Shown one piece after another: positions 169-5,558 of a stretch of DNA of 64,000 bases. This DNA is from Pseudoflavonifractor phocaeensis (lineage in GTDB: Bacteria; Bacillota; Clostridia; Oscillospirales; Oscillospiraceae): assembly GCF_021531815.1 (NCBI RefSeq), contig NZ_JADYUM010000008.1, forward strand, positions 1-64,000, given 5' to 3'. The notes under the pieces were generated by a model. That model worked only from the letters and a program-made list of their open reading frames with translations, had not been told where the DNA came from and searched no databases. The first letter of the stretch is position 1; each line of letters starts with the position of its first letter. Made by a program: the position numbers and the translations under genes.

Positions 169-3100
169 TCACATCTCCTCTTCCTTGCGCTTTCTGCCGG
201 TGATGGCCAGCCAAGCCAGACCCATGCCGGACACGGCAGCGGCCATGATCCAGAGCATCAGGTTATCGCCGGTGGCAGGGACCTCGGCCTTGGGGACATC
301 CGGCTCGCCGATGTCGATGTCGGGCTCGGAGGGCTCGGTGGGCTCGGTGGGCTCAGTGGGCTCAGTGGGCTCAGTGGGCTCGACCTCAGGATTGGTGGGC
401 TCAGTATCGGGCTTGTCGGTGTTGGGGATCTCGATGTCAGGGATGTCGGCGGCCTCCACGTAGTACACGGTGATGGTCTTGTTGCTGTTGGCAATACCCT
501 TCACAGGATCGCCGGTGGTGCTGTCGTAGGTGTAGCCGTCGATCTCGATGGCATCATACTGGGTCATGTCGTAAGAGGTGTTCTTCTTGACGAGCTTCTG
601 CTCAAGCTGGTGGATCTCTTTGTCGGTTTCCTTGTCCAGATACTTCACAGTGACAGTGTAGTAGGTGGAACCATTCCCGTTGCCGGGGTTAGTGGGAGTG
701 GTGTAGTCATAGCGCAGGGTGATGGTGGCGGTGCCGTCGGCGGTCACGGTGACGGAGGCGGGGGAAGCGCTGGAGTAGGAGTAGGCCTTGCCGTTATAGG
801 TGGTCACCTTGGTGATGTTGGCGGCGTCGATGCTGGAGCCGACCTTGCCGCTGGCGGTGATGGAAGAGCTGCCGTCGAGGCTGTTGTCGGTGTAGTACTT
901 ATGGACCACAGTGTAATTGGCATCGCCGGGATCGGTGCTGTAGTTGCGGATATAGTTGATGGTGATGTCATACCGTCCGTCGCTGCTCAGTTCCACAGAC
1001 AGGGAGGAGGGAGTGCCGTTTACGAAGGTGTACGCGATGGTGTCAGTCGCGGTGGTGTAGACCGGCTGCTTGGTAGCGGTGTAAGTGGCGCCGATCCAAA
1101 CGCCGTTCTCCTTGCCGGTGACGTCGGTAACGGTAGCGTACTCGGGAGTAACACCCTCGGAAGCGATGTACTCAGCGTCGCTCAGGGACTCGTCTACGGT
1201 ATAGGTGTCGCGGGCGTAATACTTGTGGGTGACCCGGACGGAGACACCGGAGTCGTGGCGGGTATCGACGTTTTTGCTGTAGTACAGGTGGATCTCGTTG
1301 GTGCCGGGCTGGACCTCGATGGTGGTACCGGAGATGAAGTCGCTGGTGGCGTCCTTGCTGATCAGACGGTAACCATTCTCGTCGTTTTCGTCAGCCTTCA
1401 GGTTGGGAGTGGCGGTGAAGGACAGGCCCACATAGCTGGTGGCGTGCTGCTCTTCGGGCTCATAGCCTTCGTTGGGATAGCCGGTCTTGGTACCGTCCCA
1501 GTTGACCTCTGTGTAGTAGTGGTAGACGTACACGGTAGCGGAGTCGCGGTTGCCGGACTTCTTGCTGTACTCAAAGTTCACAACGTTGCCGGTCTCGCCG
1601 ACGGTGATCGGGTATTTGTTATCGACAGCGACCAAGTCAATGTCGCCGTGCTTGGCGGTGTCCAGGGTGTAATCGTCAGGCTGGGGGACCGCCTCGTAGG
1701 TTTCGCCCACGTACAGTTCGGCGGTAACGGGGGCCTTGGTGGGGCCGGCCGTGGGAGTGATGTTCTGTACGCCATCCTCATAGGTGTAGTTGTAGATGGT
1801 GTACTTGTGGTTGACAGTGACCGTCACCTTGTCCAGAGGATTCTCGCGGTCATAGTTCAGCTCCAGGCTGTTGGTACCGGTGGCGCCCAGTGTCAGGGTG
1901 AGGTTGGGCGTGCCGCGCAGCACGTAGGTGTATTCGGTTTTGCTCTCATCCGCGTTGGTGACTTCATAGGTGGTGTCGGTGGCGACGGTGACTTCCATAC
2001 CCACGTAGAGAGTGGTAACAGGTTTTCCGTTTTTGTCGGTCAAAGTGTAGGTGGTGTCGGAGCCTTCGAAAACGGGAGCGTCATAGTAATCGGCTTTGCC
2101 GTCCTGGACGGTCATGTTCTTCACGTGATAATTGTGGGTGACGCTCAGGTCGGTCTCGACCAATTCGCTCTCGCCCTCCCGAACGTACTGGAGAACCACA
2201 GTGATGCCGGTGGCGCTGTAGGTCTGGTTGAGGGAGGAGGTATCAACGCGCGTATACTCTTCGTCTCCAAAAGAGGTCACAGGAGAGATGGTCTTGGTGT
2301 CGCCGATCTCGCCAAAGTAGTTGACAGGCGCGGGCCAATTTGCGGAATCCACAGCCCGGCGCTCGGTGGTCACAACGCCGTTGCGTACGCAGAGGACGTC
2401 CTCAAAGTATTCATGTTTGACCGTGATCTTGCCGACCTTGGGAGGATCGCCGGCCTTCTTGTCCAGGTAGACGTGGGCCTTGTTGTTGTTGCCGGCCACC
2501 AGGGTGATGGAGGCGTCAGAAGGAGTTTCGAATTCGCCCTCGTCATACATCAGGTCCGGGGTGTAGCCTTCGCGGCCCTCGGGGTTGGTGGAGACGACGG
2601 GGAATACCTGACCCGCGTAATAAGTGGTGCCCGCTGCGGGATAGGAGGCGGAATCGGTAAAATCGTCTTCCTCATAGCTCCAGGTCACTTCGCCGGAAGT
2701 GGCATCGATCTCGCTGGTCCAGGTGCGGAAGTGGTGGACCACTTCATAGGTGGCGGTGTCGGGATAGTCCGAGTCGTTGTAATAGATGTTGACCTCATTT
2801 TGACCCGCGGTGGGGTTCGCGACCACGGTGATGGCGCTGGGAGCGCTGGGCGTGGGATAGGTGTGGTCTTTGTAGGTCAGCTCGTAACCGTGCTCGGGAT
2901 CAGAACTGAAGTCGTAGGTCTCGCCGGCATACCGACGGACGGTGGCGCTGGTGCCGATCTCAGCGTTGGGATCGGTGGTGAGAGAGAGGTCGGCACCGTC
3001 GGCGGTGTAGGTGTTCAGGGTGTAGATGTGGTTGATGGTCACATCGATCAGGGCGCCGCGGCGATCAATGATCTGCTTATAGGTGGCCACGATGGGGTTG

Positions 3101-5463: not shown

Positions 5464-5558
5464 GAAATACTGGCGGCTGGGCGAGCGTGGCGCTTTGGCT
5501 TTAGCCCCCTGGCTTTGCGTCCCGTCCTTTCGGGCGGTTTGCCGTTTTCAGGTATTTC
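5464..5558 (-). promoter_or_regulatory. c-di-GMP-I (GEMM-I) riboswitch aptamer
   Basis: On the minus strand, P1 is closed by GAAATAC and GTATTTC. Inside are the hallmarks of the family in order: GGCAAACC, a helix capped by a GAAA tetraloop, GGGACGCAAAGCC, and the tetraloop receptor GGGGGCTAAAG. The base before CAAACC is G and the intercalating base in GGGACGC is A, as in c-di-GMP rather than cGAMP binders. It ends 28 bases before the adhesin start and no terminator hairpin intervenes. Control is therefore probably at translation or RNA stability, direction unknown. It starts about 40 bases beyond the stop of the upstream gene. Confidence 0.9.

Follow-up and report, generated by a model that had tools for sequence, protein, structure and literature searches.

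The adhesin locus and its aptamer

On the minus strand of the window, as the whole 64-kb stretch of DNA analysed here is called, a large surface-protein gene follows a class I c-di-GMP riboswitch aptamer and a small gene of an uncharacterised family, with a type IV pilus operon further upstream. The locus comprises the following features.

169..5436, minus strand: target gene, encoding a 1755-residue secreted VWA / GBS104-like Ig / MucBP surface protein with an LPXTG-like (PATGD) tail (open reading frame, Pfam)
5469..5553, minus strand: c-di-GMP-I aptamer, RF01051 (covariance-model match and sequence)
5601..6062, minus strand: P0002, 153 residues, of an uncharacterised family, leading the unit (open reading frame, Pfam, relatives)
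6259..6294, minus strand: terminator-like hairpin 3' of pilT, before the P0002-aptamer-adhesin unit (terminator scan)
6460..7530, minus strand: pilT, final gene of the adjacent type IV pilus operon, which has no aptamer (Pfam)
9223..10506, minus strand: pilC/T2SSF gene of the pilus operon (Pfam)

An earlier note on this DNA had described a VWA/MucBP adhesin of 1755 residues behind an aptamer, and the reading frame and Pfam matches agree with it. Pfam placed a VWA domain at residues 116-252, a GBS104-like Ig domain at 386-503 and one MucBP domain at 1594-1659. By a simple rule the N-terminus is signal-peptide-like. The C-terminus matched the LPXTG anchor model weakly (29.5 bits, cut-off 48); its tail reads PATGD, a hydrophobic stretch and RKRK. 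Four sortase places were found in the genome.

When the window was scanned against 4227 Rfam families, RF01051 matched at 5553-5469 (minus strand) over the full length of the model (positions 1-87), with 62.0 bits against a gathering threshold of 35 (E 1e-9). This bore out the earlier recognition of a c-di-GMP-I aptamer from P1, GGCAAACC, a GAAA loop and GGGACGCAAAGCC, all of which are present in the sequence. The aptamer had also been placed upstream of the adhesin, correctly, but at a spacing of 28 bases; the end of P1 and the ATG are 27 nt apart. P1 itself consists of 7 bp between GAAATAC (5558-5552) and GTATTTC (5470-5464). In a permissive scan of 5420-6200, RF03167 (c-di-GMP-I-GGC, same clan as RF01051) was the top match among the overlapping clan matches, with 56.7 bits, below its gathering threshold of 59. 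The adhesin's aptamer was the only one in the 64-kb window at gathering threshold, and the entire genome (2.67 Mb, 45 contigs) holds two RF01051 matches, the second at C1:71370-71456.

A predicted start-codon switch

Four short strands on either side of the aptamer boundary are involved in the predicted switch.

5552..5558, minus strand: 5' strand of P1, GAAAUAC (sequence and folding)
5464..5470, minus strand: 3' strand of P1, GUAUUUC (GUAUUUCG), doubling as the core of the anti-start arm (sequence and folding)
5457..5474, minus strand: anti-start arm, GCCA-G-UAUUUCG-A-UCUUC, overlapping the aptamer-terminal GCC and the P1 3' strand (folding)
5429..5446, minus strand: sequestered strand, GGAGA-A-CGAAAUG-A-UGGC, with the Shine-Dalgarno (SD) sequence, the start codon (5436-5434) and the following codons (folding and comparison)

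The minimum free energy (MFE) structure of the adhesin leader is a long hairpin in which the last two of these strands pair. Folded alone, this 46-nt hairpin reached -16.7 kcal/mol (z -5.7), a stability equalled by none of 200 shuffles; for the entire 146-nt leader stretch z was -1.69 (12 of 200 shuffles). Because the left arm of the hairpin includes the P1 3' strand and the terminal GCC, the hairpin and P1 are mutually exclusive: in the computed structures the ligand-stabilised helix and the helix that sequesters SD and start have one strand in common. Forcing P1 to form cost 3.8 kcal/mol. With the P1-formed state modelled simply by folding the sequence downstream of P1, the computed unpairedness of the AUG rose from 0.10 to 0.91, and that of the SD from 0.01 to 0.17, the SD still lying mostly in a weak 5-bp hairpin.

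These structures suggest a mechanism. In the ligand-free leader the terminal GCC, the P1 3' strand and the next UCUUC would fold onto the SD, the start codon and the codons behind it, and the start would be hidden. With c-di-GMP bound, P1 and GCC would be locked in the aptamer, the long hairpin would be barred and the AUG freed, so that the adhesin would be made at high c-di-GMP. The riboswitch is on this model a translational ON switch for the adhesin, a reading to which we give a probability of about 0.8, and it would act mainly through access to the AUG. A terminator scan of the minus strand found no terminator-like site between aptamer and adhesin start, in line with the earlier note, which had therefore thought control probably translational; with a predicted hairpin over SD and start codon, this is likely. 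The same note held that the direction of control cannot be predicted, a view that no longer stands, as the platform predicts ON and covariation among relatives agrees.

Comparison of related leaders

Related leaders were drawn from genome samples in which RF01051 matched (E <= 0.001) in 56 of 200 family genomes and 20 of 61 genus genomes. A core pattern applied to the fetched stretches gave 131 distinct aptamers, of which 27 tandem-upstream members ('tandem' by a 190-base rule) were excluded from the platform classes. By rule 36 leaders fell into class A; one (L049) was moved out as class B, which left 35 with the same platform, the adhesin leader counted in. The start of L106 and the arm positions of L028, L111 and L133 were set by hand. 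Class A start regions read AUGGC or AUG(A/U/C)UGGC, and 33 of the 35 targets have a signal-peptide-like N-terminus by the simple rule; of the two exceptions, one is truncated at a contig end.

The MFE structure paired the arm with the SD/start region in all 35 members (11-18 pairs), the outer helix being favoured by construction since the class A rule included UGGC near the start. On removal of the P1 strand, the mean unpairedness of the AUG in the 34 members with P1 rose from 0.29 to 0.71, and that of the SD from 0.20 to 0.37; no opening of the AUG was seen in three class A members (L027, L111, L131). Among 11 hand-picked relatives of the 34, the hairpin folded alone gave z values of -3.0 to -6.1 and was matched in stability by 0-2 of 200 shuffles. 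In a swap control each arm paired better with its own start than with those of other leaders (-17.5 against -14.4 kcal/mol; 0 of 20000 permutations), and this was also true when pairing was limited to the SD-to-start spacer (-6.7 against -4.3; 0 of 20000) and for the P1 strands (-5.8 against -4.5; 3 of 20000), all class A swap and shuffle statistics here and below ignoring kinship among the leaders.

Two alignments were examined for covariation: A1 (MAFFT) with all 35 rows, and A2 with 22 rows, 13 with arm insertions being omitted. RNAalifold predicts the inner part of the anti-start stem, and the structure counted on A2 was its consensus with one outer pair added. In A1, 82.5% of hairpin cells were paired (shuffled 79.7%, 0/500; slid 37-53%) and 21 cells were changed on both sides (12.5 in shuffles, 6/500); two of the five measures were not distinct from shuffles (94/500, 78/500). 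In A2, 94.5% of cells were paired against 89.2% in shuffles (0/500) and 25-54% in slid versions, over which the structure has an advantage, being derived from that alignment's own consensus. Changes on both sides were seen in 13 cells against 4.9 (0/500), the covariation score was 0.287 against 0.186 (0/500), and the number of pairs with two-sided change (3 against 1.9, 106/500) was not distinct. One A2 pair carries GC in 11 rows, AU in 8, GU in 1 and UA in 1. The aptamer, the two exclusive helices and the compensatory changes in relatives are all present by computation. For P1, scored by fixed columns, 57.6% of cells were paired, not above the 55.7% of shuffles (100/500), and the covariation score was weakly above them (36/500). 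The weaker column signal may be because arm lengths differ; the P1 finder returned four pairs or none in 8 of the 35 members.

Output, ligand and direction

The same two structures would also fit a switch whose main output is Rho-dependent polarity or mRNA stability, in which the closed hairpin stops translation and the message is then terminated or degraded. This is unlikely, as the leader lacks an intrinsic terminator and the covariation, centred on the AUG/SD region, is explained by translation control alone.

Judged from sequence, c-di-GMP is the likely ligand of the adhesin aptamer. The letter that we take to be position 20, the equivalent of G20 in Vc2, is G (in aaacGGcaaacc), as in 34 of the 35 class A leaders, this one among them. 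GGDEF domains were found at eight places in the genome, seven of them over the cut-off, and four of the five loci read have intact motifs. The G at position 20 across the class and the intact GGDEF genes make it quite improbable that 3',3'-cGAMP is the main ligand or that the aptamer is promiscuous, even with an A at position 20 in the genome's second aptamer (C1) and with position 20 presented as a selectivity factor and no hard filter in the available text of a study that names G20 of Vc2 (PMC9262584).

An OFF switch, through which c-di-GMP would lower adhesin translation, has a precedent in Vc2, cited as a translational OFF switch in the same text (PMC9262584), and the SD does sit in a small local hairpin when P1 is formed. 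It is nonetheless very improbable here: P1 draws on the very strand that covers the start, a geometry present in the MFE structure of 35 of 35 members, and swapping the arms weakens the pairing. That the hairpin, stable by itself, serves just as a thermometer or constitutive brake, with the aptamer a relic, is scarcely credible given an aptamer well above the family threshold here and in relatives and an arm that overlaps the P1 strand and the terminal GCC across the class, the invariance of the core being no argument since the core pattern collected the loci.

Relation to known c-di-GMP riboswitches

The translational ON switch predicted for the adhesin can be set beside several described systems. 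The earlier note had drawn an analogy with Clostridioides difficile, which holds for c-di-GMP control of adhesins and type IV pili but not for the aptamer class. According to the available text of a review, these genes are under class II aptamers in C. difficile, whereas class I members are transcriptional OFF switches (PMC11477304). The class II switches raise adhesin expression with c-di-GMP, as predicted here, and differ in aptamer class and in being mostly transcriptional (PMC11477304). A closer parallel is the Bc2 RNA of Bacillus thuringiensis, a class I aptamer before the cell-wall collagen adhesion protein gene cap, described as an ON switch in which ligand binding blocks an inhibitory hairpin (PMC4933901). 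Bc2 works by a transcription terminator and anti-terminator in that account (PMC4933901), whereas the present leader has no terminator and its hairpin lies over SD and start. In Vibrio cholerae, the class I aptamer Vc1 was reported to have a positive effect on the colonization factor gbpA, the direction predicted here; in the text available its authors report neither an anti-SD nor a terminator and do not settle the mechanism (PMC4744006), whereas an explicit covarying anti-start helix is found at the adhesin. Vc2, from the same species, shares with our prediction translational control by a class I aptamer with P1 as the switching element, but is described as OFF (PMC9262584).

An adhesin gene under a class I ON switch (PMC4933901), a positive class I effect on a colonization factor (PMC4744006) and P1 as a switching strand (PMC9262584) are thus already in print, as far as the available texts of these sources go. 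In a search mostly of openly accessible papers, no literature was found on this start-codon platform or on c-di-GMP switches in the host family. For a c-di-GMP switch on the adhesin of a gut-type bacterium, the locus offers a direction and a mechanism that can be tested, and it suggests that a class I aptamer can be wired to a start codon through its own P1 strand, across related leaders.

A probable transcription unit and P0002

From the pilus operon 1 kb upstream, the earlier note had supposed that one messenger may tune attachment through pilus and adhesin alike. This finds no support, as the pilus genes have no aptamer at gathering threshold in the window and a terminator-like hairpin follows pilT (6294-6259, minus strand; one of 12 such sites that the scan gave on 7 kb, where shuffles gave 6.2). 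That hairpin and the P0002 gene had both been overlooked. With the hairpin, a putative promoter region and P0002 between pilT and the aptamer, P0002, aptamer and adhesin probably form a transcription unit separate from the pilus operon. The pilus-adhesin neighbourhood is conserved in five fetched relatives. A transglutaminase-core protein is encoded at 10313-11311 (minus strand), between the pilus operon and the gene of a BTAD protein, P0123, and in seven fetched relatives this gene stays between pilC and P0123.

P0002 has 1682 relatives at E <= 0.001, and no Pfam domain was found among the best 120 of them; two of these 120 were omitted from its alignment (A3). The source names of two relatives among the matches listed are Lawsonibacter and Flavonifractor. 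In the predicted model (pLDDT 74) a unit of three strands plus a helix occurs twice; a structure search gave no convincing match. In 15 of the 35 class A leaders a P0002 relative ends no more than 600 nt before the aptamer. The same holds for none of the 27 of class B, where the 190-base rule enters some leaders of wider arrays twice, and for one of 42 others. As the unit has its own putative promoter and the switch lies inside it, P0002 would be made whatever the ligand state. From its position, P0002 may have a role in the same surface regulon. A distant paralogue in the same genome (C20; L036 311-859, minus strand) lies, by eye, directly upstream of a SipW-type-signal-peptidase-like reading frame, and shares its contig stretch with a degenerate-GGDEF gene that carries the promoter box described below.

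A promoter box and its candidate reader

Three further features belong to the putative promoter of the unit and its control.

6096..6101, minus strand: -10-like element TATACT with extended TG, TGGTATACT (by eye; relatives)
6111..6129, minus strand: heptamer direct repeat TGTAACC-GGTTT-TGTAACC, TGTAACCGGTTTTGTAACC, upstream of P0002 (sequence, genome pattern search)
11445..12743, plus strand: P0123, a BTAD (SARP-type) protein, candidate reader of the box (Pfam; genus comparison)

The repeat stands 9 nt upstream of the -10-like element, which was not among the sites of a consensus promoter scan upstream of P0002. A genome search allowing up to three mismatches found the repeat at four places (two for a reversed control). 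Exact copies of TGTAACC-N5-TGTAACC number two, one upstream of each c-di-GMP-I aptamer, the second 141 nt upstream of the aptamer core. A copy with one mismatch precedes a gene whose GGDEF domain (64.7 bits) has a motif that looks degenerate; a further copy, with three mismatches, lies in the window at 60210. In the 61 genus genomes the exact two-heptamer pattern occurs at seven places (reversed control five), five of them upstream of an aptamer and one upstream of a lone P0002 relative. The 200 family genomes have it at 15 places, four shared with the genus set (control four): seven upstream of an aptamer, two others upstream of P0002 relatives and one of a sortase gene. Slightly different boxes near the adhesin of two genomes (G226 and G248) precede sortase-like genes, of which Pfam confirms that of G226.

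P0123 is the only BTAD match in the genome (77.9 bits, cut-off 22.1) and lies 5 kb from the box. It also matches Trans_reg_C below the cut-off (21.4 bits, cut-off 26.2) and, at its C-terminus, GGDEF below threshold. Among the 61 genus genomes, 11 have P0002. It is present in all nine genomes with the closest P0123 relatives (at least 50% identity, own included), and in two of the other 28 with any, mostly weaker, P0123 match. P0123 lies near pilC with one reading frame between them in eight of the nine, this genome among them, and six have adhesin, aptamer, P0002, P0123 and pilus genes together at a single locus. From this co-occurrence we infer that P0123 reads the heptamer box. At two further loci, L244 (G218:C17) and L243 (G216:C42), P0123-like and P0002-like genes adjoin beside surface-protein-like genes, and no aptamer core was found in these two stretches.

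SARPs, according to the available text of one source, bind heptameric direct repeats with spacers of 4-15 nt that generally overlap the -35 region (PMC10972967). P0123 shares with these activators the BTAD domain, and its presumed box is likewise a heptameric direct repeat; it differs in its genome, probably of a gut clostridial type, its sub-threshold C-terminal GGDEF match and its putative surface-protein targets.

A two-layer circuit is a tentative reading of these findings, possible but less probable than not. P0123, with its degenerate GGDEF tail, would bind TGTAACC-N5-TGTAACC promoters of a small surface-protein regulon comprising the P0002-adhesin unit, the signal peptidase/surface protein genes behind the second aptamer, a sortase gene in relatives and the gene for the second degenerate-GGDEF protein. 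In some of the transcripts c-di-GMP would license translation or elongation through the aptamers. The adhesin would appear only when both layers agree, and P0002 would be an uncharacterised accessory of the regulon. In such a circuit a promoter box, a SARP-type protein and a large uncharacterised family of proteins would be tied to c-di-GMP sensing, and an adhesion regulon of little-studied bacteria would become directly testable.

Other c-di-GMP-I aptamers

The second aptamer of the genome (L001 1501-1587, equal to C1:71370-71456), with A at position 20, is followed by genes for a 96-residue protein, signal peptidase I and a surface protein rich in Cys and His. By eye, the sequence has a hairpin and a T-rich run that suggest a transcriptional platform. 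The leader of G235 (L080) resembles it.

Arrays in which two to four c-di-GMP-I aptamers stand in tandem (L082, L078, L089, L077, L088, L090 and others) have a different common platform, CGGATACTTTGCATCCGA..GCAAAGAAAGGAAG. Its CTTTGCRTCC is a full or near complement of the aptamer core GGACGCAAAG, as is CTTTGC of the GCAAAG next to the SD. The pattern follows 27 non-upstream aptamers, some leaders being counted twice. A letter other than G stands at position 20 in 12 of 18 downstream-most aptamers of an array (six A, six C) and in four of 27 upstream members (Fisher p 0.001, kinship ignored), hinting at different ligands within one array.
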